Below are positions 2-26,263 of a stretch of DNA of 38,524 nucleotides, piece after piece; the first letter of the stretch is position 1, and the number at the start of each line of letters is the position of its first letter. This DNA comes from Clostridiales bacterium (GTDB taxonomy: Bacteria; Bacillota; Clostridia; Lachnospirales; JAQSXR01). Under the pieces are notes generated by a model, which saw only the letters and a program-made list of their open reading frames with translations, was not told the DNA's origin and did no database searches. A program made the position numbers and the translations under genes. The stretch is taken from contig JAQSXR010000013.1 of assembly GCA_029256575.1 (NCBI GenBank), forward strand, positions 1-38,524. Direction: 5' to 3'.

Positions 2-697
2 TATGGGATTACAAGAGAAGCACAAGATACCTTTTCTGCAGAATCACAGAGAAAAGCAATCGAGGCAGTTGACTCTGGAAGATTTAAGAATGAGATAGTA
101 CCTGTAACGGTTAAAGTTGGTAGAGAAGAGGTTCTCTTTGATACAGACGAATATCCGAATAGATCTACTAATTATGAAAAGTTAAATAAGTTAAAACCTG
201 CGTTTAAGAAGGACGGGAGTGTTACAGCTGGTAATGCCTCAGGGTTAAATGATGGTGGAAGTATAATGCTAATCGCGAGTGAAGATGCAGTGGAGAAATT
301 TAACCTAAAACCTTTGGCTGAGATAATTGGAATCGGACAAGGTGGAGTTGATCCAAAGTATATGGGCCTTGGACCTGTACCAGCAATTAGAGCCGCACTT
401 AAGGATGCTGATCTTAAGTTGCAAGATATGGATGTGTTAGAAATTAATGAAGCGTTTGCAGCTCAAATGCTTGGTGTTGTACACGAACTTTCTCTCGAAC
501 ACGGAATGACAGAGGAGGAGATATTGAATATATCAAATCCAAATGGAGGAGGAATCGCTCTTGGGCATCCAGTTGGAGCAAGTGGTAATAGAATAATGGT
601 GACATTATTACACGAAATGACGAAGGGACAACATGGCCTTGCAAGTTTATGTATAGGTGGTGGAATGGGAACGGCAGTTGTTTTAAAAAAATTATAA
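2..697 (+). CDS. Acetyl-CoA acetyltransferase (thiolase), 5' part outside window
   Basis: The reading frame is open from the left edge, so this is the C-terminal 231 residues of a thiolase of about 390 residues; the N-terminal part with the acyl-accepting cysteine lies outside the window. Visible motifs are NEAFAAQ, GGGIALGHPVGASGNR with the active-site histidine, and CIGGGMGTA with the second catalytic cysteine near the C-terminus. The family reversibly condenses two acyl-CoA units or cleaves 3-ketoacyl-CoA with CoA in the cytoplasm. The next gene starts 26 bases downstream, so the two are co-transcribed. An internal ATG at 266 is not a gene start, because conserved thiolase sequence continues upstream of it. 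Whether it prefers acetoacetyl-CoA or longer substrates cannot be told from this part. Confidence 0.96.
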   Translation, partial: YGITREAQDTFSAESQRKAIEAVDSGRFKNEIVPVTVKVGREEVLFDTDEYPNRSTNYEKLNKLKPAFKKDGSVTAGNASGLNDGGSIMLIASEDAVEKFNLKPLAEIIGIGQGGVDPKYMGLGPVPAIRAALKDADLKLQDMDVLEINEAFAAQMLGVVHELSLEHGMTEEEILNISNPNGGGIALGHPVGASGNRIMVTLLHEMTKGQHGLASLCIGGGMGTAVVLKKL

Positions 698-723
698 TTT
701 AAAAATATTGGAGGGTGATTAAA

Positions 724-1443
724 ATGAGATTAAAAGATAAGATTGCAGTTGTAACTGGAGGAGCAAAAGGGTTAGGTCAGGCAATGGCTGAATTATTTGC
801 GAAAGAAGGAGCAAAAGTTGTAGCGGTAGATATGGGTGATCTTTCATATTCGAACCCTAATGTAGAGGGTTATAAGCTAAATGTTACAAATTCAGAGGAT
901 TGTAAGAAATTTTTTGATTATATGGTTGAGAAATATGGAAAGATTGACATTCTTGTTAACAATGCTGGAATAACAAAAGATGCAATGACAAGAAAAATGA
1001 CTGACGAACAGTGGGATTTAGTAATCGATGTAAACCTCACAGGAGTATTTAACTTAACTAGATTTATTGGCCCTCATATGCAAACAATGGGTGGTGGATC
1101 AATCATAAGTATTTCATCAATCGTTGGAGAGTACGGCAACATTGGTCAAGCAAACTATGCTGCGACTAAGGCAGGAGTATTAGGACTTACTAAGACTTGG
1201 GCCAAAGAATTTGGAATGAAGGGCGGAAATGTTAGAGTGAATGCAATTGCCCCAGGTTACATAATGACAGATATTTTAAAAACAGTACCACAAGAACTTC
1301 TTGATGGATTTGCAAAGCAAACAATGATTGGAAGATTAGGGCAACCAGAGGAAATTGCAAACGCAGCATTATTCCTTGCATCAGACGAAGCATCCTACGT
1401 AACAGGACATACACTTAGTGTTAACGGAGGAATGAGGCTATAA
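724..1443 (+). CDS. SDR-family 3-oxoacyl-CoA/ACP reductase, FabG/PhaB type
   Basis: A 239-residue classical short-chain dehydrogenase. It has the Rossmann motif TGGAKGLG (residues 11-18), NNAG (79-82), Asn104, and the catalytic Ser132, Tyr145 (YAATK) and Lys149. Asp36 at the end of the second beta strand (VVAVD) usually selects NAD(H) over NADP(H), which suits a reversible or catabolic role; this is inference. FabG/PhaB-type enzymes interconvert 3-oxoacyl and (R)-3-hydroxyacyl thioesters, matching the (R)-specific MaoC-type hydratase later in the operon. I chose the ATG at 724 because GGAGG at 710-714 lies 9 bases upstream; an in-frame GTG at 715 overlaps that ribosome site. It sits between the thiolase and the KASIII-like gene. 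Confidence 0.93.
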   Translation: MRLKDKIAVVTGGAKGLGQAMAELFAKEGAKVVAVDMGDLSYSNPNVEGYKLNVTNSEDCKKFFDYMVEKYGKIDILVNNAGITKDAMTRKMTDEQWDLVIDVNLTGVFNLTRFIGPHMQTMGGGSIISISSIVGEYGNIGQANYAATKAGVLGLTKTWAKEFGMKGGNVRVNAIAPGYIMTDILKTVPQELLDGFAKQTMIGRLGQPEEIANAALFLASDEASYVTGHTLSVNGGMRL

Positions 1444-1464
1444 TTAAAATTTAGGAGGATTAAT

Positions 1465-2490
1465 ATGGCAGTAAATGTAGGAATTGTAGGAACGGGAATA
1501 TATATACCAGAAAATTTTATGACTGCAGCAGAAATTGCAAAAGAAACAAATGGTGTTTGGTCAGAAGAGGCAGTTATTCAGAAGCTAGGAATAAAGAAGA
1601 AACCAATACCTGGAGCAGATGATGGTACCCAAGAAATGGGCGCAAAGGCTGCACTTGATTGTCTTAAAAACACAGGAATTAAGGCAGAAGAGATAGATGT
1701 AATCATAAATGTTGGTGAGGAATGGAAGGAATATCCTCTTACGACATCAGCTTTATATGTTCTAGGGAAAATAGGAGCAATAAATGCTTGGGGAATTGAT
1801 GTGCAAAACAGATGTGCCACAACAATTGTAGCATTAAAGATGGCAAAAGATATGTTAGTGTCAGATGATTCAATTAATACAGTTATGGTTGTTGGTGGAT
1901 ATAGAAATGGTGATTTTGTTGATTATACAGATAAGAATATGTCTATGATGTTTAATCTCGGAGCTGGTGGTGGAGCAATCATTCTTAAAAAGAACTATGG
2001 GAAGAATCTACTACTTGAATCACATATTATAGCAGATGGGACATTAGCCAGAGCTGCAGGAGTTGAAATAGGTGGGATAGTTAATCCGATATCAAGTGAT
2101 AATATCGGGGAAGCCTACAAATCACTGAGATTGATGGATGCAGTAGGAATGAAAAACAGACTGAATGAGGTTTCCATGCCTAATTGGTTTAAGTGTATCG
2201 ATACTGCTTTTGAAAAATCAGGAATTGAAAAAAGTGAACTCGATTATCTAGCAATACTCCATATTAAGAGATCTGGGCATATGGAGATGATAAACAGCTT
2301 GAATTTGAAAGAAGAACAATCAATATATCTTGAGGACTATGGCCACATTGGACAAATTGATCAAATATTATCATTACATATTGCTTTACAAGAAGGAAAA
2401 GTTAGAAATGGCTCAGTTGTAGCGATGATAGCAGCAGGAATTGGCTATGTATGGGCTGCCAATGTGATTAGGTGGGGTGATGATAACTGA
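1465..2490 (+). CDS. KASIII-like 3-oxoacyl synthase with Cys-His-His triad
   Basis: A 341-residue protein of the FabH/KASIII branch of the thiolase superfamily. The N-terminus (VGIVGTGIYIPEN) is typical, and Cys117 in NRCATTIVAL is the acyl-accepting nucleophile. His266 (AILHIKRSGH) matches the KASIII catalytic histidine. FabH has YGNTSAA at the third catalytic position; here the segment is YGHIGQI, so Asn is replaced by His294. The C-terminus has a glycine-rich AAGIGYVWAA in place of the usual GGG-type ending. It probably makes or breaks a carbon-carbon bond on a CoA-linked substrate; being next to a thiolase and reductase, and far from any fatty-acid synthesis gene, it is unlikely to be the housekeeping FabH. 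Its stop overlaps the next start by one base (TGATG). Real reaction unknown. Confidence 0.85.
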   Translation: MAVNVGIVGTGIYIPENFMTAAEIAKETNGVWSEEAVIQKLGIKKKPIPGADDGTQEMGAKAALDCLKNTGIKAEEIDVIINVGEEWKEYPLTTSALYVLGKIGAINAWGIDVQNRCATTIVALKMAKDMLVSDDSINTVMVVGGYRNGDFVDYTDKNMSMMFNLGAGGGAIILKKNYGKNLLLESHIIADGTLARAAGVEIGGIVNPISSDNIGEAYKSLRLMDAVGMKNRLNEVSMPNWFKCIDTAFEKSGIEKSELDYLAILHIKRSGHMEMINSLNLKEEQSIYLEDYGHIGQIDQILSLHIALQEGKVRNGSVVAMIAAGIGYVWAANVIRWGDDN

Positions 2491-3374
2491 TGGGGATATT
2501 CATTCAAATACTGTTAAACAGCTTGGAAATTGGGGGTATATACGCACTTGCTGCCTTGGGGATAATACTTATTTATAGAACCTCTAATACACAAAATTAT
2601 GCTCAAGGAACCATAAGTATGTTCAACGCATTTGTAGCTACTTACATATTCGCATTCTTATTTAACAAAGAAAATAAATTTGCTTGGGTAGCAGCTATCT
2701 TAGGAATGGCAAGTGCACTAGTGGTAGGAATGTTAGTGGATAGGGTAGTTATTTCGAGGGCAACTAAGGTTCACCCAGTATCCAAACAAATAATAACACT
2801 CGGACTTATAATGATATTTCTAGGAATGGCACCAATGATATTCGGTACAGATCCTATGCCTTTTCCTAAATTTATCTATGGAAGTCACACTATTTTAGGA
2901 GCAACTATTTCATATAGTGCGATCTTAAATATATTAATTGGTATCGTGATTATGGTTGTTTTATTCTATATGCTTCAAAAGAGTAAATGGGGACTTTCAG
3001 TAAGAGCAACAGCATCCAATGAAGTAGTAGCAAGAATGATGGGAATACCAACTCCTCTTATTACAATGGCTTCATGGGCTATAGCTGCAGCACTAGGAAC
3101 ACTCGCTGCTATTATGTTAGCTCCTGCAACGAGTGTTAACCTTTCTATGATGGATGGGGTTCAAGTAATTGCACTAATGGCTTGCGTACTAGGAGGCTTC
3201 CAAACTTTTCATGGTCCAGTAGTAGCTGCATATATAATTGGTTTTGCAAGTAACTTGATAACCTATTATGTATCATCTGTATGGAGTGATTCAATTTTAT
3301 ATATTTTAATTCTAATCGTTATTTTATTTATGCCGAACGGGTTATTTGGTAAAAAAGTAGTTAAGAAAGTATAG
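2490..3374 (+). CDS. LivH-type ABC importer permease
   Basis: A 294-residue polytopic membrane protein of the branched-chain amino acid permease family (LivH side). The start GGIYALAALGIILIYRTSNTQ-like segment, internal RATASNEVVARMMGIPT loop and C-terminal LFMPNGLFGKK are typical of LivH. The loop after RATASNE is where the ATPase normally docks. The ATG overlaps the upstream stop codon by one base, with GGTGGGG at 2471-2477 as a plausible ribosome site, so translation is coupled to the KASIII-like gene. It forms a heterodimeric pore with the next gene. Members of this family transport leucine-type amino acids, but also urea, short amides and aromatic or aliphatic carboxylates, so the substrate cannot be set from sequence. 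Confidence 0.93.
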   Translation: MGIFIQILLNSLEIGGIYALAALGIILIYRTSNTQNYAQGTISMFNAFVATYIFAFLFNKENKFAWVAAILGMASALVVGMLVDRVVISRATKVHPVSKQIITLGLIMIFLGMAPMIFGTDPMPFPKFIYGSHTILGATISYSAILNILIGIVIMVVLFYMLQKSKWGLSVRATASNEVVARMMGIPTPLITMASWAIAAALGTLAAIMLAPATSVNLSMMDGVQVIALMACVLGGFQTFHGPVVAAYIIGFASNLITYYVSSVWSDSILYILILIVILFMPNGLFGKKVVKKV

Positions 3375-3386
3375 GAGGTGGAGACA

Positions 3387-4427
3387 TTGGATAAGAAAAA
3401 AACCGAACGAATGGCTAAACCAAAGCGTAAAGCCGGCAACCCATATATTAATTACATAGTATTTGGACTTATTATGTTAATGCTTCCTATACTTGTAGAA
3501 AAGGAAGTCATAAAATATTCCTACCTTACAATAGTAGCAGGAATATTAATATATTCAATCGTATCACTAGGACTTAATTTCTTGATCGGATATTCAGGAT
3601 TGGTTTCGCTAGGAACAGCAGGCTTTATGGGTTTAGGTGCTTACCTTTCAGCTTATTTGACGATTAATCTAAAGCTTCCATTTGAAATTTCATTGATTAT
3701 ATCCGTAGCAATTCCGATGGTATTAGGAATATTAACAGGGCTAGTTTCACTTAGAATTGAAGGATATTACCTCGCAATTGCCACATTAGTAATATCGGAG
3801 ATTCTCCGGAAGGCGTTTGGAGAGTTCACAGCGGTTACAAATGGGTTTTCAGGCAAAAGTGCAGGATTTCCTAAGCTCTTAAATGGAAAAGTATTAGACA
3901 GAAACTCCACCTATATTCTTATTGTTGTTGTTCTAGTTATCGTAATTATGATTACACATAATTTAATTAACAGTTACACGGGAAGAGCACTTTCAACAAT
4001 GAGGGGAAGTGAAGCAGCAGCACAAGCAATGGGTATAAATATTTACCGATACAGGCTGTTAGCATTCGCAGTAGCAGTAGCTTTTGCAGCTCTTGCAGGA
4101 GTATTATATGTACACTTTATTAAATTTTCACATCCAAATACGTGGACATTATTATTATCGCTTAATATATTAGCAGTTATCATAATAGGTGGCGTAAGAT
4201 CTATCCCAGGAACAATTCTTGGTGCGTTTATAGTATTTGGTATACCAGATCTTGTTCTAAAAAATCTTCCTGTAATCGGTAAGATTGACGGAATACCATA
4301 CATATTTACAGGAGTGCTGATTATTGTAGTAATATTGTTTTACCCTGCTGGCCTAATTCATATATGGTTTAATCTTAAAAGAGCAATCTTTAGTTTAAGA
4401 AAGAAAGGAGGGAATGACAGTGAATAG
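3387..4427 (+). CDS. LivM-type ABC importer permease
   Basis: A 346-residue membrane protein with the LivM signature GLNFLIGYSGLVSLG followed by GFMGLGAYLSAY, the loop RGSEAAAQAMGINIYRYR and the C-terminal RSIPGTILGAF segment. I start it at TTG 3387 because AGGAGGTG at 3373-3380 is correctly spaced for that codon; a GTG at 3378 lies inside the ribosome site. The first ~20 residues are lysine/arginine-rich (KKKTERMAKPKRK), giving a cytoplasmic tail before the first membrane helix. It pairs with the LivH-type permease upstream. Its end overlaps the start of the next ATPase gene, so the transporter genes are translationally coupled. Confidence 0.93.
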   Translation: MDKKKTERMAKPKRKAGNPYINYIVFGLIMLMLPILVEKEVIKYSYLTIVAGILIYSIVSLGLNFLIGYSGLVSLGTAGFMGLGAYLSAYLTINLKLPFEISLIISVAIPMVLGILTGLVSLRIEGYYLAIATLVISEILRKAFGEFTAVTNGFSGKSAGFPKLLNGKVLDRNSTYILIVVVLVIVIMITHNLINSYTGRALSTMRGSEAAAQAMGINIYRYRLLAFAVAVAFAALAGVLYVHFIKFSHPNTWTLLLSLNILAVIIIGGVRSIPGTILGAFIVFGIPDLVLKNLPVIGKIDGIPYIFTGVLIIVVILFYPAGLIHIWFNLKRAIFSLRKKGGNDSE

Positions 4428-5253
4428 TAAAATGCTAGAAAGTAAAGAAAACATAGAAAATATAGATGATGATGTAGTATTAAGATTAGATGATTTATCG
4501 ATATCTTTTGGTGGACTAAAAGCTGTAGATTCCTTAACCTTTGATATTAAAGAAAAAGAAATCTTTGGCCTTATTGGACCAAATGGAGCAGGAAAAACAA
4601 CTGCATTCAATTGCATAACTCAGTTTTATAAACCGGATAGAGGAAGTGTATACTTCAGAACAAATAAGGGTGAAGTTGAAAATCTGGTCGGGAAAAAACC
4701 ACATGAAATTATTAAAAAAGGACTTGTAAGAACGTTTCAAAATGTTGAGTTAATAAAAGAACTAACTGTATTACAAAATGTTCTTGTAGGTTCACACATT
4801 GAATTTAAGGCATCTTTATTAAGTCAAATTCTCAGACTTCCAAAAGCTAGAAAAGAAGAAATTAGATTAAGAAAAAAAGCGGAAGAAGTACTTGAATATA
4901 TGGGGCTTCATACTATAAAAGATCAACTTGTGGCAGGGCAACCCTATGGAGTACTTAAGAAGATTGAACTTGCACGAACACTAATGTGTAATCCAAGGCT
5001 AATCATTCTTGATGAACCTGCAGCAGGACTAAATGATTCTGAAACATTTGCACTGATTAGAATCGTTAGAGGAATAAGAGATCGCTATAATTGCTCCATA
5101 CTTCTTGTTGAACATGACATGAGATTTGTTACAGATTTATGTGATAGAATTTGTGCTATATCGTTTGGAAAGTTAATTTTTGTTGGAACACCCCAAGAAA
5201 TACAAGCGAATGAGCAAGTGCAGGTTGCTTATTTAGGGAAGGGGGATGAATAA
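4420..5253 (+). CDS. LivG-type ABC importer ATPase
   Basis: A 277-residue ATPase with Walker A GPNGAGKTT, the LivG-specific RTFQNVELIKELTVLQNV region, and Walker B LIILDEPAAGLND followed by the EHDM switch histidine. The signature segment is PYGVLKKIELARTL, diverged from the usual LSYGxQRxLEIARAL. Two starts are possible: ATG 4414 lies only 2 bases after AGGAGG (4406-4411), while GTG 4420 has an 8-base spacing and is preferred. The gene overlaps the livM-type gene and is followed by the second ATPase. It supplies ATP hydrolysis for the importer at the inner face of the membrane. Confidence 0.92.
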   Translation: MNSKMLESKENIENIDDDVVLRLDDLSISFGGLKAVDSLTFDIKEKEIFGLIGPNGAGKTTAFNCITQFYKPDRGSVYFRTNKGEVENLVGKKPHEIIKKGLVRTFQNVELIKELTVLQNVLVGSHIEFKASLLSQILRLPKARKEEIRLRKKAEEVLEYMGLHTIKDQLVAGQPYGVLKKIELARTLMCNPRLIILDEPAAGLNDSETFALIRIVRGIRDRYNCSILLVEHDMRFVTDLCDRICAISFGKLIFVGTPQEIQANEQVQVAYLGKGDE

Positions 5254-5254
5254 A

Positions 5255-5974
5255 ATGAATGATAAGGAACTGATTATTAGAGGCTTGAAGGTTAATTATG
5301 ATAGCATTGAAGCTTTGAAAGGGATAGATATTACAGTTAATAAAGGTGAAATAGTTGCCTTGCTTGGATCGAATGGAGCAGGAAAAACAACTACACTTAG
5401 AAAAATATCTGGAGTTCTCGATGCGAGTGGTGGAACAGTAAAATTCCAAGGACATGATATTACCAAAATGGCACCAAATAAAATTGCATCATTGGGTATT
5501 ATTCAATCACCTGAGGGTAGGCAGATATTTAGAGAACTAAATGTTAATGATAATTTGATGACCGGGGCCTATACAGTAAAGAATAGAAAAGAGATTCAGA
5601 ATAATTTTAAGAGGGTTTACAAGTATTTCCCTGTACTAATGGAGAGAAAAGATCAAGTTGGTTCAACGCTATCAGGTGGGGAACAACAGATGTTAGCCAT
5701 CGGCAGAGCACTTATGGGAAGCCCCAAATTATTGTTATTAGATGAACCATCACTAGGCTTGGCACCGTTAATCGTTAAAAGTATATTTGAAATTATTCAA
5801 GAGATCAGAAAAGATGGTACTACCGTATTAATTATTGAGCAAAATGCACTACAAACTCTGAAAATCGCAGATTATGCTTATGTACTCGAAGTTGGTAAAA
5901 TAGCCATGGAGGGTAAAGCGGAGGAATTGAAAAATAATCCTCAACTCATAGAAGCTTATCTGGGAGGTAAATAA
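5255..5974 (+). CDS. LivF-type ABC importer ATPase
   Basis: A 239-residue ATPase of the LivF group with Walker A GSNGAGKTT, the LivF mark SPEGRQIFRELNVNDNL, the canonical signature LSGGEQQMLAIGRAL, Walker B LLLLDEPSLGLAP and the following IEQNA in place of the histidine switch, as is normal for LivF. I chose the ATG at 5255: it has GGAAGGGGG ending at 5245. An in-frame ATG at 5246 directly abuts that ribosome site. It starts one base after the livG-type stop. The two ATPases probably form a heterodimer serving the LivH/LivM-type pore. Confidence 0.92.
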   Translation: MNDKELIIRGLKVNYDSIEALKGIDITVNKGEIVALLGSNGAGKTTTLRKISGVLDASGGTVKFQGHDITKMAPNKIASLGIIQSPEGRQIFRELNVNDNLMTGAYTVKNRKEIQNNFKRVYKYFPVLMERKDQVGSTLSGGEQQMLAIGRALMGSPKLLLLDEPSLGLAPLIVKSIFEIIQEIRKDGTTVLIIEQNALQTLKIADYAYVLEVGKIAMEGKAEELKNNPQLIEAYLGGK

Positions 5975-6006
5975 AACAAAAAAACCCAATTCAAGGAGGA
6001 AGTTTT

Positions 6007-7314
6007 ATGAAAAAAGTAATATCAATTATGTTAGTAATCACAATGATGGTAACAATGTTAGTTGGTTGTGGTAAAGATGAAAAAGTTGATAACCCAGTTA
6101 CAAGCACAACTAAAGGTGGGGACGTAGTAGCAACAACAACGAAAGAAGAAAAAGTATCACAAGGAGTTACTGACACAACTGTAAAAGTAGGTAATACAGC
6201 TGCAACTTCAGGTGCATTAGCAGCGGTTGGAGTACCATTCAATGCTGGTATTGAAGCACGTTTCAAACAAGCTAATGATGCAGGCGGAATTGATGGCAGA
6301 ATGATAGAATTCGTACATTATGATGATGAATTTGATCCAGTAAAAGCATTAGCTGCAACAGAAAAATTAATCAATGATGACAAAGTATTCGCAATAAATG
6401 GACATTTTGGAACACCAACAATCGGAGCTACATTAGATTTAGTAAAAACAAGCGAAATTCCAGTTGTTTACTTCGCAGCAGGGATAGCATCTCTTTATAA
6501 CGAAGATGCAACTACATTAGAAAATGGAAAAGGACTTTTCCCAGTTCAACCAATATATATTACTGAAGGTAGACTTATGGTTGCAAGAGCAATTGAAGAA
6601 CACCAAGCTAAGAAAATCGGTGTTATCTATACAAATGATGATGCTGGTAAAGACTTACTTAATGGTATCGAAAATCAAGTTAAGAAACTTGGGGGAAGTT
6701 ACACTGTAGTGAAAGAACAAATTAATCCTGGTGCTACTGACGTATCATCAGCAGTATTAAAGATGAAGAATGAAGAAGTAGACGTAATAATGGCAGCTTC
6801 TATACAAGCCACATTACCAACAATTATCAAAGGGCTTATAAGCCAAGGCGTAAGCAAACCAGTATTTACAACTTACTCGAATGCAGATGCTACAACAATT
6901 GCGAACTTTGCAGATGACTATGCAGCATCAAAAGAAAAGTTCCCAATCTATTCAAATGCTTGGGTTGATCTTAGTAACAAAGAAGAAGTAGATTTCTTTG
7001 TAAAAGGAATGACTGATTTTGGTAAACCAGAATATGCTGGAAATGCATTTGCTATGGCAGGTTGGATTGCAGGATGTTTCATGGTCGAAGGTCTTGAAAG
7101 AACATCTGGTCAAGTACTTAACTGGGAAAACTTTATGGAAGCTATGGAATCAGCTGAATTCAAAATCCCTATGGGTGGAACTTTAAACTATGCTGATGGA
7201 CAAAGACTTGGAACACAAGCAATGTCACTCCTAAAAGTAAGTGAAGATGGATTATCATGGGAAAATGTAAAGCCAGTTGAAGATTTAAATGTTATTATTG
7301 ATAGAGTGAAATAA
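6007..7314 (+). CDS. LivJ/LivK-type substrate-binding lipoprotein
   Basis: A 435-residue extracytoplasmic receptor. The N-terminal signal ends in the lipobox LVGC (Cys21), followed by a Thr/Lys/Glu-rich linker to about residue 55 and then the type I periplasmic-binding fold (DTTVKVGNTAATSGALAAVG, KALAATEKLINDDKVFAINGHFG). It captures the ligand outside the membrane and hands it to the LivHM-type permeases. AAGGAGGA at 5993-6000 is a strong ribosome site. The ligand is unknown; family members bind amino acids, amides, and aliphatic or aromatic acids. Its place in an acyl-CoA operon suggests a carboxylate that is then activated to a CoA thioester, which is inference. A 16-bp perfect hairpin follows the stop. 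Confidence 0.93.
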   Translation: MKKVISIMLVITMMVTMLVGCGKDEKVDNPVTSTTKGGDVVATTTKEEKVSQGVTDTTVKVGNTAATSGALAAVGVPFNAGIEARFKQANDAGGIDGRMIEFVHYDDEFDPVKALAATEKLINDDKVFAINGHFGTPTIGATLDLVKTSEIPVVYFAAGIASLYNEDATTLENGKGLFPVQPIYITEGRLMVARAIEEHQAKKIGVIYTNDDAGKDLLNGIENQVKKLGGSYTVVKEQINPGATDVSSAVLKMKNEEVDVIMAASIQATLPTIIKGLISQGVSKPVFTTYSNADATTIANFADDYAASKEKFPIYSNAWVDLSNKEEVDFFVKGMTDFGKPEYAGNAFAMAGWIAGCFMVEGLERTSGQVLNWENFMEAMESAEFKIPMGGTLNYADGQRLGTQAMSLLKVSEDGLSWENVKPVEDLNVIIDRVK

Positions 7315-7320
7315 ATAAAC

Positions 7321-7361
7321 ATAATACTAGGACTGGGCTGACGGTCCAGTCCTAGTATTAT
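7321..7361 (+). other. 16-bp perfect inverted repeat between receptor and CoA-transferase genes
   Basis: The left arm 7321-7336 (ATAATACTAGGACTGG) is exactly complementary to 7346-7361, with a 9-base loop. No U-run follows, so it is not a classical terminator, and the next gene begins only about 25 bases later. Such hairpins often stabilise the upstream message or cause partial termination, which would raise receptor over enzyme levels; that role is inference. Confidence 0.8.
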
Positions 7362-7385
7362 TGATAGAAGGGGTTGGGACATAAT

Positions 7386-8699
7386 ATGGATTACAAACAA
7401 AAACGAATAACAATTACAGAAGCTCTAAATCTCGTTAAGTCGAATGATATGATTGTAACTGGATTAGGATCATCAGAGGCACAACTTTTTATGAATAATC
7501 TTCATACAATTTCTGATCGAGTGGAAAATGTTACGATAACTAACTGTTTATCTATGTCAAGTGGCGAGTTCTTAAAGCCAGAGTATAGCAAATCGTTCAA
7601 TATTGATGGGTGGTTTTATTCATCTTCTCTAAGAAAAGCTCACAAAAATGGAAATATTTCATTTATACCAAACCATCTTCATCTAGCAGGGATAAAGAGA
7701 CTCGATCATGTTAAACCAAATATTTATATAGGCAGTGCATCAATGCCAGATAAACACGGGTACATTTCACTCTCCTTAAGTAATACATATGAAAAACGAA
7801 TGATGGAAGTAGCAGATATTGTAATTCTTGAAATCAATTCAAATTATCCAAGAACATTTGGGGATGTTGAAGTGAAGTTATGTGATGTTGATTACTTAAT
7901 AGAGACTGACTATGAAGTTCCTGTTATAGCAGATATCATTCCTTCTGAAAAAGATAACATCATTGGTCAATACATAGCAGATATGGTAAACGATGGTGAT
8001 TGTATTCAGCTAGGGATTGGTGGTATTCCTAATGCGGTAGCTGCAGCACTTAAGAGCAAAAAGGATTTGGGAATTCATACGGAAATGATGACCTCAGGAA
8101 TGGTAGAATTAGCAAAATTAGGAGTCGTAAATGGAAGTCAAAAAACGTTGCATAAAGGGAAAATAGTGTGTACCTTTGCCCTTGGTAATAAGGAATTATA
8201 TGAATTTCTGGATGATAATCCATCCGTTCTAGTTTTGGATGGTCATTATGTAAATAATCCGGATACAATAGCAAAAGTTGATAATATGGTATCAATTAAT
8301 ACAACGATTGAAGTTGATTTAACAGGTCAATGTTGCTCTGAATCCATTGGGCCAATACAGTTTAGCGGAACAGGTGGTCAAGCAGATACAGCAATAGGTG
8401 CACAAAAAGCTAGGAATGGACGTTCCTTTATTGCACTTTATTCGACTGCAATGGTGAAGAATACGGAAACTGGTGAAAAAGAGGAGATATCAAAGATTGT
8501 ACCTATGCTTAAGCAAGGTGCAGCTGTTACTCTTTCCAGGAATGATGTTGATTACGTGGTTACAGAATATGGGGTTGTTTCTTTAAGAGGAACAAATATC
8601 CGTGAAAGAGTTGATAGACTTATTAGTATAGCACATCCTAAATTTAGAGAAGAAATTAGAAAACAAGCGCGTGAAATAGGATTAATATACGACAAATAG
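7386..8699 (+). CDS. Acetyl-CoA hydrolase/CoA-transferase family protein
   Basis: A 437-residue class I CoA-transferase of the acetyl-CoA hydrolase/4-hydroxybutyrate or butyryl-CoA:acetate transferase group. Visible marks are the GSASMPDKHGYISLSLSN segment in the N-terminal domain, QLGIGGIPNAVAAAL (209-221), Glu233 in HTEMM at the position of the catalytic glutamate that forms the CoA thioester, and FSGTGGQADTAIGAQ followed by GRSFIALYSTA. It would move CoA from acetyl-CoA or another acyl-CoA to the imported acid, or release the acid at the end. The ATG at 7386 is chosen, with AAGGGG at 7368-7373 about 12 bases away; TTG 7374 directly abuts that site. It is the first catalytic gene after the importer. 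Confidence 0.9.
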   Translation: MDYKQKRITITEALNLVKSNDMIVTGLGSSEAQLFMNNLHTISDRVENVTITNCLSMSSGEFLKPEYSKSFNIDGWFYSSSLRKAHKNGNISFIPNHLHLAGIKRLDHVKPNIYIGSASMPDKHGYISLSLSNTYEKRMMEVADIVILEINSNYPRTFGDVEVKLCDVDYLIETDYEVPVIADIIPSEKDNIIGQYIADMVNDGDCIQLGIGGIPNAVAAALKSKKDLGIHTEMMTSGMVELAKLGVVNGSQKTLHKGKIVCTFALGNKELYEFLDDNPSVLVLDGHYVNNPDTIAKVDNMVSINTTIEVDLTGQCCSESIGPIQFSGTGGQADTAIGAQKARNGRSFIALYSTAMVKNTETGEKEEISKIVPMLKQGAAVTLSRNDVDYVVTEYGVVSLRGTNIRERVDRLISIAHPKFREEIRKQAREIGLIYDK

Positions 8700-8715
8700 A
8701 GCAGGAGGAGTAATA

Positions 8716-9852
8716 ATGGATTTTACATTAAGCAAAGAGCATGAAATGGCAAGAACACTTTTTCGAAATTTTGCTCAAAAGGAAGTTAAGCCTCTAGCAA
8801 GAGAGGTTGATGAAACAGAGGTATTTCCAAGAGGAACAGTAAGTAAAATGCAAAAGCTTGGATTTCTAGGAATACCAATTCAAAAGGAATTTGGTGGTCA
8901 AGGTTGTGATACTTTAACATATGCAATTTGTGTGGAAGAATTATCAAAGGTTTGTGGAACAACAGGAGTTATCGTATCTGCGCATACTTCTTTATGCGCA
9001 GATCCAATCAATAAATTTGGGACACCAGAACAAAAAGAGAAGTTTCTAAGACCGTTAGTAAGTGGTGAAAAATTAGGGGCTTTTGGATTAACTGAGCCAA
9101 ATGCTGGAACAGATGCTTCAGGGCAACAAACAAAAGCAGTTTTAGTCGAGAATGAATATATCCTAAATGGTAGTAAAATATTTATTACAAATGGAAAAGA
9201 AGCAGATATCTATATAATCTTAGCAATGACAGATAAATCAAAAGGGACGAGAGGAATTTCTGCGTTTATCCTAGAAAAAGGTACTCCAGGCTTTACTTTT
9301 GGAACGAAAGAAAAGAAGATGGGGATAAGAGGTTCGGCTACTTATGAGTTGATTTTTACGGATTGTAGAATCCCAAAAGAAAATCTTCTTGGTCAAGAAG
9401 GGAAAGGCTTTGGGTATGCAATGCAAACACTTGACGGTGGTAGAATAGGTATTGCAGCGCAGGCACTCGGCCTTGCAGCAGGGGCATTAGAAACTACAAT
9501 CGCATATGTAAAAGAAAGAAAACAATTTGGAAAATCAATATCTAAATTTCAAAATACACAATTTAAGATTGCAGACATGGCAACAAAAGTAGAAGCAGCT
9601 AGACTCTTAGTTTACAAAGCAGCAATTGCAAAAGATACACAAAAAGTATTTTCGGTAGAAGCCGCTATGGCTAAATTATACGCTTCAGAAGTCGCAAGTG
9701 AGGTTACTAGCTTGGCTGTTCAACTTCATGGAGGATATGGTTATACAAGAGAATATGATGTTGAACGTATGATGCGTGATGCTAAGATTACCGAAATCTA
9801 TGAAGGGACATCTGAAGTACAACGTATGGTTATCTCCGGAAACTTACTATAA
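8716..9852 (+). CDS. Acyl-CoA dehydrogenase, short-chain/butyryl type
   Basis: A 378-residue FAD enzyme of normal family length. It shows LTEPNAGTDA and FITNGKEADI (flavin/substrate binding), the C-terminal helical signature QLHGGYGYTREYDVERMMRDA, and the catalytic base Glu363 in IYEGTSEVQ. This is the position seen in short- and medium-chain acyl-CoA dehydrogenases; in isovaleryl- and long-chain-type enzymes the base lies elsewhere. It oxidises acyl-CoA to 2-enoyl-CoA, or with an electron-bifurcating Etf reduces enoyl-CoA. The etfB and etfA genes directly follow, so they are its electron partners. Ribosome site GCAGGAGG is at 8701-8708. Direction in vivo is not decidable from sequence. Confidence 0.95.
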   Translation: MDFTLSKEHEMARTLFRNFAQKEVKPLAREVDETEVFPRGTVSKMQKLGFLGIPIQKEFGGQGCDTLTYAICVEELSKVCGTTGVIVSAHTSLCADPINKFGTPEQKEKFLRPLVSGEKLGAFGLTEPNAGTDASGQQTKAVLVENEYILNGSKIFITNGKEADIYIILAMTDKSKGTRGISAFILEKGTPGFTFGTKEKKMGIRGSATYELIFTDCRIPKENLLGQEGKGFGYAMQTLDGGRIGIAAQALGLAAGALETTIAYVKERKQFGKSISKFQNTQFKIADMATKVEAARLLVYKAAIAKDTQKVFSVEAAMAKLYASEVASEVTSLAVQLHGGYGYTREYDVERMMRDAKITEIYEGTSEVQRMVISGNLL

Positions 9853-9907
9853 ATTACATATGGAAATGAGAAACCATTTTCAGTCTACTAAAAAAGGAGT
9901 GAATAAA

Positions 9908-10690
9908 TTGAAAATCATAGTTTGCATAAAGCAAGTACCAGATACAAATGAGGTTAGGTTAGATCCGGTTACTGGTACACTTATAAGAGATGGAGTACCG
10001 AGCATAATTAATCCAGATGATAAATCAGGGCTAGAAGCAGCTTTAAGATTAAAAGATGAGATAGGCGCAGAAGTTTCAGTAATATCAATGGGGCCACCTG
10101 CGGCAGATGCCGTATTACGTGAAGCTATGGCAATGGGAGCTGACAAAGCATATTTAGTAACAGATCGAGCATTTGGTGGAGCTGATACATGGGCAACCTC
10201 TTCAACATTAGCAGCAGCAATCAATAACTTAGAATATGATCTAATAATTACAGGTCGTCAAGCAATTGACGGAGATACAGCACAGGTTGGACCACAGATA
10301 GCTGAACATCTTAATATTCCAAACATTAGTTATGCTGAGGATATTAAGGTAGAAGGTGATAGTATTATTGTTAAACGCCAATATGAAGATAGATACCATA
10401 TTATTAAATCGAAAATGCCTTGTTTAATAACGGCACTTGCTGAATTGAATGAGCCAAGATATATGACACCAGGTGGAATATTTGATGCGTATAAAGAAAA
10501 GAAAGTTATTATATGGGGGCGATCAGATATAACAGTTGACGATAGCAACCTTGGTTTGAAAGGATCGCCTACAAGGGTAGCACAATCTTTCCCAAAAAGT
10601 ATAAAGGCGAATGGACAAAAAGTTAACTTGGATGCAGATGAATCTGCGACATACATATTAGATAAGTTAAAAGAAAAATATATATTTTGA
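9908..10690 (+). CDS. etfB: Electron transfer flavoprotein, beta subunit
   Basis: A 260-residue EtfB beginning LKIIVCIKQVPDTNEVRLDP, with the conserved GRQAIDGDTAQVGPQIAEHL segment that wraps the nucleotide and ALAELNEPRYMTPGGI near the C-terminal third. TTG 9908 is the start: AAAGGAG at about 9893-9899 is well placed and the family N-terminus begins exactly here. The frame is also open upstream into the acyl-CoA dehydrogenase gene, but that extension is not EtfB-like. It forms a heterodimer with EtfA. In clostridia, Etf paired with butyryl-CoA dehydrogenase can bifurcate electrons to ferredoxin; whether this one does cannot be settled by eye. Confidence 0.95.
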   Translation: MKIIVCIKQVPDTNEVRLDPVTGTLIRDGVPSIINPDDKSGLEAALRLKDEIGAEVSVISMGPPAADAVLREAMAMGADKAYLVTDRAFGGADTWATSSTLAAAINNLEYDLIITGRQAIDGDTAQVGPQIAEHLNIPNISYAEDIKVEGDSIIVKRQYEDRYHIIKSKMPCLITALAELNEPRYMTPGGIFDAYKEKKVIIWGRSDITVDDSNLGLKGSPTRVAQSFPKSIKANGQKVNLDADESATYILDKLKEKYIF

Positions 10691-10746
10691 TAGAAGCGGA
10701 TTATGAGTATCCGTATTGATTGATAAGAAAGAAAGTGGTGAATATA

Positions 10747-11760
10747 ATGGGTATTGAAAATTACAAAGGAATATTTATCTTCGTACAGCAAGTAGATAAT
10801 AAAATCACAGGTGTTTCTTATGAATTAATTGGTAAGGGAAGAGAACTTGCGGTGGAGTTAGGAACGGAAGTAACAGCAGTGTTATTAGGTTCAGGGATTA
10901 GAAGCTTGGCTGATGATTTAGCAGCTTACGGAGCAGATAAGGTTATCCTAGTAGATGACCCAGCTCTTGAGATATATACAACAGAGCCATATACGCATGC
11001 AATGGACAGCATAATAAATAAATATAAACCTGAGATTGTTCTCTATGGGGCTACTGCAATCGGTCGTGACCTTGCACCACGTGTATCAGCGCGAGTACAT
11101 ACTGGTTTGACTGCAGACTGTACCAAATTAGAAATTGATCCACAAACCCAAAATCTAAGAATGACAAGACCAGCTTTTGGAGGAAATATTATGGCTACAA
11201 TCGTTTGCCCGGATTTCCGACCACAAATGGCGACAGTTCGCTCTGGGGTTATGCAAAAAATAAAGCGAATCGAAGGGGCAAAGGTTAATTTGGAAGAATA
11301 TAACCCAGGCTTTGAAAAAAATAATAAATATGTAGAAGTACTCGAAGTAATCAAGAAGGTATCTTCGAAAATAGATATTCAAGATGCTAATATTTTGATA
11401 TCAGGTGGCCGTGGAGTAGGAAAACCAGAGAACTTTAAGATATTAGATGAGTTAGCGGAAGTAATTGGTGGTACAGTAAGTTCTTCAAGACCTTGTGTAG
11501 ATTCTGGTTGGGTAGAAAAGGAATTGCAAGTGGGTCAGACGGGTAAGACGGTACGCCCTAATGTTTATTTTGCAATTGGTATTTCTGGAGCAATACAGCA
11601 TTTGGCAGGTATGGAAGAATCAGAACTTATAATTGCAATTAATAAGGATGAATCAGCTGCGATATTTGATGTAGCCGACTATGGAATTGTAGGGAATTTA
11701 AATGAAATAGTTCCGATATTGACGAAAAAAATAAAAGCAGAAATGGCTATGAAAAACTAG
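10747..11760 (+). CDS. etfA: Electron transfer flavoprotein, alpha subunit
   Basis: A 337-residue EtfA. The C-terminal FAD domain is canonical: ISGGRGVGKPENF, SSSRPCVDSGW, VGQTGKTVRPNVYFAIG, ISGAIQHLAGM and INKDESAAIFDVADYGIVG. There is no N-terminal ferredoxin domain, unlike some clostridial EtfA proteins. The ATG at 10747 has AAGTGGTG at 10733-10740; the open frame extends upstream without homology. A small hairpin (CGGAT 10697-10701 with ATCCG 10709-10713) sits in the gap after etfB. It carries electrons between the acyl-CoA dehydrogenase and NAD(H) and/or ferredoxin. Confidence 0.95.
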   Translation: MGIENYKGIFIFVQQVDNKITGVSYELIGKGRELAVELGTEVTAVLLGSGIRSLADDLAAYGADKVILVDDPALEIYTTEPYTHAMDSIINKYKPEIVLYGATAIGRDLAPRVSARVHTGLTADCTKLEIDPQTQNLRMTRPAFGGNIMATIVCPDFRPQMATVRSGVMQKIKRIEGAKVNLEEYNPGFEKNNKYVEVLEVIKKVSSKIDIQDANILISGGRGVGKPENFKILDELAEVIGGTVSSSRPCVDSGWVEKELQVGQTGKTVRPNVYFAIGISGAIQHLAGMEESELIIAINKDESAAIFDVADYGIVGNLNEIVPILTKKIKAEMAMKN

Positions 11761-11803
11761 TAGTCGACACAGCTACAAATAATTATAATAGGAGGTATAA
11801 ATA

Positions 11804-12211
11804 TTGAATTACGAAGACATTAAAATAGGTGACAAAGCAACAATAGAAAAAATATTTACTTCGAAAGATGTTGAAATCTTTGCAGATGTAACAACAGATA
11901 AAAATCCGATTCATTTAGATGAAGAATTTGCGAAGAACAGTTTATTCAAACAAAGAATCGTACATGGAATGTTAACATCTTCATTAATTTCTGCGGTTTT
12001 GGGGACAAAATTACCTGGAGAAAATACACTATATCTTTCACAAACATTAAAGTTTTTAAATCCTGTTTATTTGGGAGACAGCTGTGTGGCTGAAGTAGAA
12101 GTCATGAGTAAAAGAGCAGATAAGAAAATGTTAACTCTTAAGACAACCATTACAACAAATAATGGAGAAGTAGAAGTTGTAGTAGGGGAAGCGATTGTAA
12201 AGAAAATGTAA
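11804..12211 (+). CDS. MaoC-like (R)-specific enoyl-CoA hydratase, PhaJ type
   Basis: A 135-residue single hot-dog domain, the usual length of PhaJ-type hydratases. The hydratase-2 motif is clear: ADVTTDKNPIHLDEEFA with Asp32 and His37 as the catalytic pair, then IVHGML. Members add water to trans-2-enoyl-CoA to give (R)-3-hydroxyacyl-CoA, the stereoisomer used by the FabG/PhaB-type reductase in this operon. The start is TTG 11804, with AGGAGGT about 7 bases upstream. The gene begins about 43 bases after etfA. Confidence 0.92.
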   Translation: MNYEDIKIGDKATIEKIFTSKDVEIFADVTTDKNPIHLDEEFAKNSLFKQRIVHGMLTSSLISAVLGTKLPGENTLYLSQTLKFLNPVYLGDSCVAEVEVMSKRADKKMLTLKTTITTNNGEVEVVVGEAIVKKM

Positions 12212-15704: not shown

Positions 15705-16697
15705 ATGAAAAAAACATTAGCAGTATTATTAAGTTTAGTATTAGTTATGAGTATTTTTACAGCTTGTGGAGCTAAGAAGGCAAAGACTGGTTTAGCAATT
15801 ATTACATCAGCTAGTCACAGTTCAAAAGATGCAGGAGAAAAAGATGGGCTTGCACAAACAGATTCTACAGCAGCAGCAGTTATAATTGATGAAAAAGGTG
15901 TAATTAAGGATTGTGTTATAGACGTTGTACAAACAAAGATTAAGTTCTCTACAGCTGGAGAGGTTACAACTGATCTTGCAACAGAATTTGTTTCCAAAAT
16001 GGAATTAGGTGCTGATTACGGTATGAAAGACGCTTCTCCAATTGGAAAAGAATGGGATGAACAAGCGAAAGCTTTAGCTGAATATGTAATAGGTAAAACA
16101 ATTGACGAAGTAAAAGGTATCGCTGTAACAGAAGGATATGCTACAGATAAAGACTTAACAAGTTCAGTAACAATAACTATTTCAGATATGTTAGCAGCAG
16201 TAGAAAAAGCTGTTGAAAACGCGGAAGATTTAGGTGCTTCTGTAGGTGATGAACTTGGATTAGGAATTATATCAACTCTTGGTCATAGTACAAAAAATGC
16301 ATCTGAAGAAGATGGTGTTGCTCAAGCTTATTCACACTACGGTGTTGTTACTTTAAATGAAAAAGGTAAAATAACAAGTAGTATTATTGATGCTTCGCAA
16401 ACAAATGTAAGTTTTTCTAAAGAAGGAATTATAACATCAGATGTTGCAGCTGTATTCAATACTAAGGTAGAACTTGGTGATGCGTATGCAATGAAGGGCG
16501 TTTCAGCTATCGGCAAAGAATGGTATGAACAAGCGAAAGCATTTACAGATTATATCGATGGTAAAACGATTGAAGATGTAAAAGGAATTGCTTTAACTGA
16601 AGGTGTTCCAACAGATAAAGACTTAACAAGTTCAGTAACAATTGATATCGGTTACTTTATAACTGTAATGGATAAAGCAGCAGCAAACGCTAAATAA
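15705..16697 (+). CDS. Lipoprotein with two tandem FMN-binding-like domains
   Basis: A 330-residue exported lipoprotein: signal peptide with lipobox FTAC (Cys21), then two copies of a ~156-residue domain (about 28-172 and 184-328). Each copy has GL.IITS..HS-K-A, EKDG.AQ, VI.D.SQT.V.FS-type strands, a GKEW.EQAKA helix and K..DVKGIA. Each ends in the motif DLTSSVT (Asp150-Thr156; Asp306-Thr312), which fits the D-x-x-[ST]-[GAS]-[AV]-T sequence where ApbE links FMN to threonine in NqrC/RnfG-type proteins. The next gene is an ApbE, so covalent loading of two FMNs is likely. The probable role is electron transfer outside the membrane. AGGAGG-like GGAGGG precedes the ATG. The flavinylation is inference; the repeat and motif are seen. 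Confidence 0.88.
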   Translation: MKKTLAVLLSLVLVMSIFTACGAKKAKTGLAIITSASHSSKDAGEKDGLAQTDSTAAAVIIDEKGVIKDCVIDVVQTKIKFSTAGEVTTDLATEFVSKMELGADYGMKDASPIGKEWDEQAKALAEYVIGKTIDEVKGIAVTEGYATDKDLTSSVTITISDMLAAVEKAVENAEDLGASVGDELGLGIISTLGHSTKNASEEDGVAQAYSHYGVVTLNEKGKITSSIIDASQTNVSFSKEGIITSDVAAVFNTKVELGDAYAMKGVSAIGKEWYEQAKAFTDYIDGKTIEDVKGIALTEGVPTDKDLTSSVTIDIGYFITVMDKAAANAK

Positions 16698-16730
16698 ATC
16701 AAAATATATTAATATGATTTGAAGAACTTT

Positions 16731-16775
16731 ACCTACCTTTTATATTATGAACTTATAATATAAAAGGTAGGTTTT
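16731..16775 (+). terminator. Terminator or attenuator between lipoprotein and apbE genes
   Basis: An 18-bp perfect stem (ACCTACCTTTTATATTAT, 16731-16748, with 16755-16772), a 6-base loop GAACTT, and TTTAT after it. It would end most transcripts of the carrier gene and let a fraction continue into apbE, giving more carrier than enzyme. Confidence 0.8.
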
Positions 16776-16872
16776 ATAGTTTATATTAGGAATATATAAT
16801 ATAGGAAAGGTTTCATAGTTTGCATAAGATGATTTTTATAGTTTTATAAATTTATTACGGGGGTCTATTCAA

Positions 16873-17916
16873 TTGAAGAAAAGAATAGTAATTTTTGTTC
16901 TTATAACGTGTATGATAATAAATATAAGCGCATGTAATTCTAAGAAGACAAAATACGAAGCAAGTTTTTTGGTACTCTTTAATACAGTAACGGAAGTTGT
17001 GGGATATACAAAAACAAAAGATGAGTTTACGAAATTTGCTCAATTAATTTATGACAACCTAGAAGAATATCATCAATTGTACGATAAGTATCATAATTAT
17101 GAAGGAATCAACAATATAAAAGTAATTAATGATAATGCTGGAATTAAACCTGTAAAAGTAGATAAAAAAGTTATTGACTTACTGCTTTATTCGAAAGAAA
17201 TGTACAATCTATCAAAGGGGAATGTTAATATTGCACTAGGACCAGTATTGGAAATTTGGCATGATTACCGTACTATGGGTGTAAATAACCCACAAGATGC
17301 AAAATTACCACCCATGAGTGAATTAGAAGAGGCAAAAAAACATACTGATATAAACAAAATAATAATAGACGAATCTGCATCCACCGTTTTTCTGGAAGAT
17401 GAATTTATGAGTCTTGATGTGGGAGCAATAGCAAAAGGCTATGCTACAGAACAAGTTAGCCAAATTGCAATAAATATGGGGTACCCTAATTTCTTGCTTA
17501 GCGTCGGAGGGAATGTTCGTGCTTCAGGGAGTAAAGGGGAAAAGGAAGAATCTTGGAATGTAGGAATTCAAAATCCGGATCAGGAGTCTGAAGAAGGAAA
17601 TCTCTTTATTCTATCTGTAAAGGATTTATCTTTAGTATCGAGTGGAAATTATGAAAGATACTATACTGTAAATGGAAAACAATATCACCATATTATTAGT
17701 CCAGATACATTAATGCCATCTGAATATTTCACTGCGGTATCCGTTGTATGTAAAGATTCAGGACTTGCAGATACATTATCTACTGCTATATATAACATGC
17801 CCTTTGAAGAGGGTAAAGCTTTGATAGACAGTTTAGAAGATACGGAAGCTCTGTGGGTTTTTGCAAATGGAGAAATGAAATACAGTAATAATTTTGAAAG
17901 TTTCATAAAGAAATAA
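16873..17916 (+). CDS. apbE: FAD:protein FMN transferase, ApbE family lipoprotein
   Basis: A 347-residue lipoprotein: signal peptide with ISAC (Cys21), then the ApbE fold. Key segments are SLDVGAIAKGYATEQV (180-195), LLSVGGNVRASG (208-219), SSGNYERYYTVNGKQYHHII (256-275) and DSGLADTLSTA (295-305), where Asp300 and Thr304 lie in the metal-binding region. ApbE cleaves FAD and attaches FMN to Ser/Thr of target proteins. The usual HHI-[IL]-[DN]-P-x-T-G segment is HHIISPDTLMP here, so the Asp/Asn and the Gly are changed. TTG 16873 is the start, with GGGGGT just upstream. The gene directly upstream encodes the probable target with two DLTSSVT sites. Confidence 0.92.
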   Translation: MKKRIVIFVLITCMIINISACNSKKTKYEASFLVLFNTVTEVVGYTKTKDEFTKFAQLIYDNLEEYHQLYDKYHNYEGINNIKVINDNAGIKPVKVDKKVIDLLLYSKEMYNLSKGNVNIALGPVLEIWHDYRTMGVNNPQDAKLPPMSELEEAKKHTDINKIIIDESASTVFLEDEFMSLDVGAIAKGYATEQVSQIAINMGYPNFLLSVGGNVRASGSKGEKEESWNVGIQNPDQESEEGNLFILSVKDLSLVSSGNYERYYTVNGKQYHHIISPDTLMPSEYFTAVSVVCKDSGLADTLSTAIYNMPFEEGKALIDSLEDTEALWVFANGEMKYSNNFESFIKK

Positions 17917-25033: not shown

Positions 25034-26263
25034 ATGCTTACATTTGAAGAATTATATAAGAAAGTAGTAGAATCATCGACGACAAAAGCTTATGATGAAG
25101 ATTTGGCAGAATTGCAGTATGACCCATATCATTTAGAATGTATTTTAAGACCTGAGAGCACTCCAACCAAGTGGCAAGCTGCAAATGAAGATTGTCGTAG
25201 GGAGGGAAGATACTTTGTTAATTGCTTATTTAAACACCTCTCAAAAGATGAAAATAATAATTACACATTAGAATATGAAGATGATAAATGTAAAGATTGC
25301 ATGGATGTTAATAAAGTAAAAAAATTATTGGCAACAAAGGATAGTATGGCTGTTTTAGAGGCAATTAAAGAAGGGAACAGGCCCGTATTTGCGATGATTG
25401 CACCAGCTTTTCTAAGCCAAATTGATATAATTGATGATGGCCAATTAAGAAGTGCATTTAAGCAATTAGGCTTCAAGGGAATGGTAGAAGTTTCTCTTTT
25501 GGCTGATATATTGACTTTGAAAGAGGCTTTAGAGTTTGATAAAGATATTAACGATGAAAAAGACTTCCAATTAACAAGTTGTTGTTGTCCAATGTGGATA
25601 GCATTGATTCGAAAAATGTATCCGGAGTTGCTTTCCCACGTGCCTAAGGCTGTTTCTCCAATGGTTGCAACGGGGAGAGTTATTAAGAAAATTGTACCGG
25701 AAGCAATAACAGTATTTATAGGACCTTGTATTGCAAAGAAAAAAGAGGCAAGGGAAGATGATATTAGGGATGCAGTTGACTACGTATTAACGTTTCAAGA
25801 GGTGGAAAATATTTTTGAAACTGCTAAAGTAACTCCAGATGACCTTCCAATTGATTTGAGAGAACATTCATCAGCTGCAGGACGCATATATGCAGTTACG
25901 AGTGGAGTGTCAGAAGCTGTACGGGCCACAGTAAATAGGATACGACCAGAAAAGCCAATAAAGGTAAAGGCCGTTCAAGCGAATGGAATGGTAGAATGTA
26001 AAAAATTACTGAAAGATTTAGAAGAGGGTAAAGTGAAAGCTAATTTCTTAGAGGGAATGGGTTGTATAGGTGGATGTGTTGGTGGACCAAAAGCAATTAT
26101 TGACAAAGAAATAGCAGCAAATAAAGTCCGAGAATATGCAGATCAATCAATATATAAAACGCCAATTGATAATCCATATGTTATAGAGCTTTTAAGTCGC
26201 TTGAATATGCATACAATCGAAGAATTACTTGAGGATCAACAAATATTTACTAGAAGTTTTTAG
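25034..26263 (+). CDS. [FeFe]-hydrogenase-like H-cluster protein, TSCCCP type
   Basis: A 409-residue protein carrying all three H-cluster motifs: L1 TSCCCPMW (Cys183-185), L2 IGPCIAKKKE (Cys232) and L3 EGMGCIGGCVGGP (Cys344, Cys348). These resemble the group B / TSCCCP class in place of the classical TSCCPxW/MPCxxKxxE/ExMACxGGC set of group A. No canonical ferredoxin CxxCxxCxxxCP cluster is visible; the N-terminal ~100 residues have only scattered cysteines (36, 54, 64, 86, 89), perhaps one atypical Fe-S site. The small-subunit (HydB-like) C-terminal domain is not obvious. It may evolve or take up H2, or act as a sensor. Ribosome site AAAGGGGGA precedes the ATG. It has no hydrogenase partner genes nearby. 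Confidence 0.88.
   Translation: MLTFEELYKKVVESSTTKAYDEDLAELQYDPYHLECILRPESTPTKWQAANEDCRREGRYFVNCLFKHLSKDENNNYTLEYEDDKCKDCMDVNKVKKLLATKDSMAVLEAIKEGNRPVFAMIAPAFLSQIDIIDDGQLRSAFKQLGFKGMVEVSLLADILTLKEALEFDKDINDEKDFQLTSCCCPMWIALIRKMYPELLSHVPKAVSPMVATGRVIKKIVPEAITVFIGPCIAKKKEAREDDIRDAVDYVLTFQEVENIFETAKVTPDDLPIDLREHSSAAGRIYAVTSGVSEAVRATVNRIRPEKPIKVKAVQANGMVECKKLLKDLEEGKVKANFLEGMGCIGGCVGGPKAIIDKEIAANKVREYADQSIYKTPIDNPYVIELLSRLNMHTIEELLEDQQIFTRSF

Follow-up and report, generated by a model that had tools for sequence, protein, structure and literature searches.

The window, i.e. the whole 38,524-nt stretch of DNA that was analysed, carries a gene for a lipoprotein, subsequently designated the carrier, whose next neighbor on the same strand encodes a second lipoprotein belonging to the ApbE family; a terminator-like hairpin lies between both genes (Table 1). 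The carrier is composed of two repeats of ~150 aa, which align without gaps at 52% identity (alignment A4). Both repeats contain the heptapeptide DLTSSVT ending in Thr156 and Thr312, respectively, as reported by the first-pass annotation. AlphaFold2 yielded a two-domain model of the full-length protein with a pLDDT of 95.2 and a pTM of 0.89, and a pLDDT of 95.6 for the single domain. Elsewhere in the window, a series of genes related to acyl-CoA metabolism (266-12211; named by eye) comprises a thiolase, a reductase, an ABC transporter of the branched-chain amino-acid type, a CoA transferase, an acyl-CoA dehydrogenase, EtfBA and a MaoC-like hydratase. Positions 25034-26263 encode a 409-aa protein with the C-terminal domain of the iron-only hydrogenase large subunit (PF02906).

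Table 1. Features of the carrier-apbE locus, with positions counted in the window.
Feature	Position	Strand	Remarks
Carrier lipoprotein, 330 aa	15705..16697	+	lipobox Cys21; two FMN-bind2-like domains, ~27-178 and ~183-330
Predicted flavinylation site 1, DLTSSVT, residues 150-156, predicted acceptor Thr156	16152..16172	+	
Predicted flavinylation site 2, DLTSSVT, residues 306-312, predicted acceptor Thr312	16620..16640	+	
Terminator-like hairpin of 19 pairs followed by a T-rich tail	16731..16772	+	between carrier and apbE
ApbE-family FAD:protein FMN transferase lipoprotein	16873..17916	+	next ORF, same strand; lipobox Cys21

The textbook target of ApbE is D-x-x-[ST]-G-A-[ST], and DLTSSVT departs from this consensus in that Gly is replaced by Ser and Ala by Val. 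Since the strict pattern has no match in the carrier sequence, the initial claim that the sites match the ApbE target pattern is not quite accurate. Taken alone, the motif says little because of this absence and because two loose matches also occur in ~1.6% of shuffled copies of the carrier. It stands above chance because it is conserved over 93 relatives and an apbE gene adjoins in 85 loci, where it lies directly downstream of the carrier at a median gap of 98 nt. Relatives were sought in a sample of 196 genomes from the order of the window, a minority of which have close relatives, and by scanning species genomes for the pattern of a four-carrier alignment, which provided at least 569 confirmed relatives, 80 of which were kept. 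Among the matches listed, carrier relatives occur in Lachnoclostridium phytofermentans, Herbinix, Mobilitalea, Anaerocolumna, Ruminiclostridium and Sedimentibacter. The consensus of the site over 93 carriers is [DE]-L-x-[SA]-S-V-T. Conservation of the motif in homologues had been named beforehand as a test, and indeed position 156 is Thr or Ser in 91 of 93 relatives (T 89, S 2), while all 88 relatives with a residue at position 312 have Thr or Ser there (T 85, S 3). Relatives with a single domain were also found. The genome of the window additionally encodes a lipoprotein of 173 aa with one such domain (contig C43, L058:10041-10559, minus strand), which carries the canonical motif DAVSGAT; it has no match to FMN_bind of Pfam and is reached by the carriers-only profile at E 5e-4 in a small set. 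A plasmid search with the paralogue P0001 as query returned no match.

The domain had been described as unlike a plain short FMN_bind domain, which is true at the level of Pfam: FMN_bind (PF04205) did not match the carrier at E values up to 1. A scan of NCBIfam at E up to 1, including the PplA model NF041941, did not list the carrier either; neither Pfam nor NCBIfam assigns it to a family. A search against FMN_bind profiles had likewise been proposed in the first-pass annotation. The carriers-only profile reaches 2kzx (site DAISGAT; E 1e-6 in a small set) and the PplA-like protein L053 (sites DVISGVT and DVISGVS; E 1.8e-18 in a small set), in both cases with the acceptor Thr in register, and L052 as well. 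When the PDB was searched with the profile of A4, which includes one paralogue with canonical motif from the window genome (P0001, DAVSGAT), 2kzx was found at E 6e-4 and domain 1 of CbFMN4 weakly at E 0.03. L053 in turn matches the PplA model NF041941 at 1.6e-20, which is below the cut-off. In hhalign, the carrier aligned with four PplA-model proteins at 94%, a score stemming partly from the signal peptide, and with PplA plus the PplA-like group at 99.4% (E 3e-21) with both sites aligned, the signal peptide again contributing. The direct carrier profile found nothing in the bona fide PplA L253, and therefore the link between carrier and PplA needs intermediates.

Structural comparison points in the same direction as the profiles. 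Neither the full-length model nor the single domain gave a Foldseek match in the PDB below E 0.001, and FMN_bind proteins emerged only upon re-alignment. In the re-alignment of the carrier domain to PDB chains, 3o6u ranked first (Z 8.6, rmsd 3.3, 108 residues aligned) and 2kzx second (Z 7.6), and RnfG of Clostridium tetanomorphum scored Z 4.1. IscU-type folds reached Z 6-7, slightly below FMN_bind, and so the fold by itself would not decide. One could read the carrier as a lipoprotein of FMN_bind-like or IscU-like fold in a non-redox role with ApbE as a hitch-hiker, a reading that also draws on the lack of an adjacent redox partner. We consider it very improbable, as the sequence profiles reach FMN_bind proteins only and the pairing with ApbE and with genes for flavin-based extracellular electron transfer (EET) is conserved. 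Profile and fold relation, with the acceptor Thr in register, place the carrier in the FMN_bind fold superfamily.

Within this superfamily, the carrier resembles the longer FMN-bind2 subtype, which was described to comprise ~160 residues, to occur in even copy number and to form an extended sheet and a predicted two-flavin unit (Huang et al. 2024, PMC11334425). The carrier has two domains of ~150 aa (~150-160 aa in the comparison), hence an even copy number, a long three-strand sheet followed by helices and likewise a predicted two-flavin unit. For FMN-bind2, motif and flavinylation test are absent from the main text of that study, whereas the carriers are distinguished by [DE]Lx[SA]SVT, pair with ApbE and mostly reside in an EET locus. 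2kzx (Clostridium thermocellum A3DHT5) and 3o6u (CPE2226), the latter being the reference FMN-bind1 protein (PMC11334425), share the FMN_bind fold and the place of the acceptor Thr with the carrier, but are single short domains with the canonical GAT motif. CbFMN4 and SaFMN3 (PMC10339131) are also secreted multi-FMN proteins flanked by ApbE; however, they consist of 3-4 copies of FMN-bind1 domains with the canonical motif. A further parallel is Listeria PplA, a two-domain lipoprotein with two FMN-threonines and an adjoining ApbE (Light et al. 2018; PMC8906456, PMC9973259). The members of the PplA model differ by shorter domains and canonical sites, DVVTGAT and EVVTGAT, and the carrier falls short of this model.

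The gene next to the carrier had been called an ApbE lipoprotein, and this was confirmed by PF02424 (E 2.5e-65; 221 bits, cut-off 25.6) and by the lipobox. Its best-scoring relative in the PDB is FmnB, the ApbE of Listeria (7esa; E 5.5e-35), with which it shares the catalytic residues: Ser257, Glu261, Arg262, His273 and Asp300 align with active-site residues of FmnB, whose catalytic or essential residues (Asp-Ser-His, Glu261, Arg262) have been reported (PMC8906456). In contrast to FmnB, the window ApbE has Leu280 in place of the glycine of the canonical P-x-T-G-x-P loop and falls into a separate clade. The loop glycine is a frequent trait of ApbE proteins rather than a requirement of the family. 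It is present in most other ApbEs, among them FmnB, TM1553 and those unlinked ApbEs that fall into the other clade, whereas the 85 carrier-linked ApbEs have Leu (82), Met (2) or Lys (1) and never Gly at this position. In a tree built by FastTree, the non-glycine ApbEs cluster without any glycine type inside, albeit at a weak node support of 0.63; the linked ApbEs together with four others form one group (support 0.92), and the window ApbE sits in a 12-member branch (support 0.98) that matches the carrier branch. A pairing of the T-G to T-L change with the altered carrier motif was considered and rejected, as 13 further non-glycine ApbEs without a carrier nearby turned up in an unbiased sample from the order. 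Several of the genomes with such carrier-less ApbEs encode FMN_bind proteins with canonical motifs, and hence the loop change is a clade marker and no proof of a matched enzyme-substrate pair. T-L ApbEs without a carrier within reach are found at L172-L186; some of them adjoin EetA/EetB-like genes, and their targets may be canonical RnfG proteins. The window genome encodes another ApbE next to a cluster of RNF genes, and dedication of the window ApbE to the carrier is therefore plausible at most.

These data also bear on the idea that the carrier domain descends from flavinylated FMN_bind ancestors but lost its covalent flavin, so that DLTSSVT would be a structural remnant and ApbE would serve RnfG or other FMN_bind proteins. 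Both the G and the A of the motif are changed, and related non-glycine ApbEs without carrier occur in genomes with canonical FMN_bind motifs as the sole ApbE detected. In the fumarate reductase of Klebsiella, G-to-A and A-to-V changes in the motif cut flavinylation to ~50% (PMC12052999). However, the acceptor Thr/Ser hardly changes at either site, in contrast to the variable remainder of the motif, ApbE is found directly downstream in 85 loci, and the window genome possesses a separate ApbE beside RNF. We therefore judge loss of the flavin unlikely, though it is the strongest of the competing explanations. Double flavinylation of the carrier by ApbE, as predicted from sequence, is well supported by homology.

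The hairpin between carrier and apbE folds with a z score of -3.1. Similar hairpins were detected in 27 of 74 carrier-apbE gaps of the set as compared to 0.5% of mononucleotide shuffles, which suggests that partial termination makes the enzyme less abundant than its substrate. The hairpin thus probably lowers apbE relative to the carrier.

The genomic context of the relatives was assessed in the 61 loci whose upstream flank spans 6 kb or more by scoring five EET genes, i.e. those for the Ndh2-like NADH dehydrogenase, polyprenyl synthetase, UbiA prenyltransferase, NusG_II/EetA-like and Hpre_diP_synt_I/EetB-like proteins. In 42 of the 61 loci the carrier-ApbE pair is part of an EET locus: 39 have at least three of the five genes and three have ndh2 and dmkB. 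The gene set is the same as that listed for the flavin-based EET locus of Listeria (PMC8906456), and thus the relatives mostly share the ndh2-dmkA-dmkB-eetA-eetB locus of PplA. Since most relatives reside there, the carrier is the counterpart of PplA in these loci and, together with its ApbE, takes the place of PplA/FmnB in many Clostridia. The branch of the window carrier (15 tips from 14 loci including the window; support 1.0) has an EET gene in no locus, and its flanking genes vary except for carrier and ApbE. The Ndh2-like query of EET scored at most 35 bits in 12 of 13 genomes of this branch, whereas Mobilitalea and three genomes used as EET controls gave 838-1118 bits; the absence of EET from the branch is provisional because many of the genomes are drafts. 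In the window itself, ndh2, dmkA and dmkB are absent from the flank, no donor or acceptor genes are encoded near the pair, and, in line with the earlier remark, the flank read around the carrier contains no NQR or RNF genes. The proposal of a stand-alone system consequently stands for the window's branch, in which EET genes are missing from the flank and an EET-type NADH dehydrogenase from 12 of 13 genomes, but not in the sense of a separate invention, given the EET locus of most relatives.

Further redox genes are present elsewhere in the window genome. Contig C10 (L054:5412-11797) encodes RnfC, RnfD and RnfG-like proteins, NusG_II and Hpre_diP_synt_I proteins (EetA/EetB-like) and the second, glycine-type ApbE; an insertion in the RnfG-like protein splits its FMN_bind match. 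A second RNF-type cluster, named by eye, is located on contig C42 (L055:5552-10398). Two lipoproteins of ~585 aa with an FMN_bind domain, noted apart from these contigs (L056:7982-9736 and L057:5727-7487), are possibly extracellular fumarate-reductase-like flavoproteins, which could accept electrons. One may ask whether carrier and ApbE are simply the ordinary PplA and FmnB of a complete EET system with its remaining genes elsewhere in this genome, as most relatives lie in an EET locus and contig C10 has EetA/EetB-like genes beside RNF. This appears improbable to us, since the Ndh2-like query gave only weak matches of at most 20 bits in the window genome against 838-1118 in EET genomes, and UbiA/DmkA had no match in this draft, which is 95% complete, so that a missed gene is possible. 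In six loci of the Herbinix type (L066, L070, L071, L072, L074, L075), a gene for a CcdA-thioredoxin-like membrane protein is located a few genes upstream of the pair. It is a possible but weak hint to a donor; the RNF genes on two contigs of the window genome would be the more obvious candidate.

Taken together, we favor, at a probability of roughly three in four, that the pair consists of a surface lipoprotein with two FMN-bind2 domains predicted to carry two covalent FMN and the ApbE attaching them, i.e. counterparts of PplA and FmnB that became detached from the EET module in the window's branch. The pair is a divergent PplA/FmnB module, derived from EET machinery that is already known, and no separately invented carrier system. 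The sequences show homology, site conservation, the pairing, the location of most relatives in EET loci and the lack of such a context here, whereas covalent FMN, electron transfer, donor and acceptor are inferred. The carrier would be anchored in the membrane on its extracytosolic side, where ApbE would take exported FAD and join FMN through a phosphoester to Thr156 and Thr312, and the two domains may pack as a two-flavin unit. Electrons would enter from a membrane donor and leave to an acceptor beyond the membrane, and the intergenic hairpin probably holds the enzyme below its substrate. In the ancestral state, the EET locus would have supplied the donor with its Ndh2/demethylmenaquinone module; as this module is gone in the window's branch, the donor there must be another one, presumably RNF or another membrane reductase. 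On balance, we lean towards the view that ApbE substrates of a large group in the Clostridia, 2x FMN-bind2 carriers replacing PplA, are flavinylated at the non-canonical motif [DE]-L-x-[SA]-S-V-T, with one branch that lacks the NADH dehydrogenase/quinone module and hence would use a hitherto undescribed donor.

This carrier family, with its at least 569 confirmed relatives, would escape surveys that rely on the SGAT motif and on FMN_bind (PF04205). If the carriers are flavinylated, the known target rule of ApbE becomes wider, and many gut and biomass-degrading Clostridia would have a recognizable EET carrier. The electron source of an orphaned EET carrier would then be testable in culturable organisms such as Lachnoclostridium phytofermentans and Herbinix.
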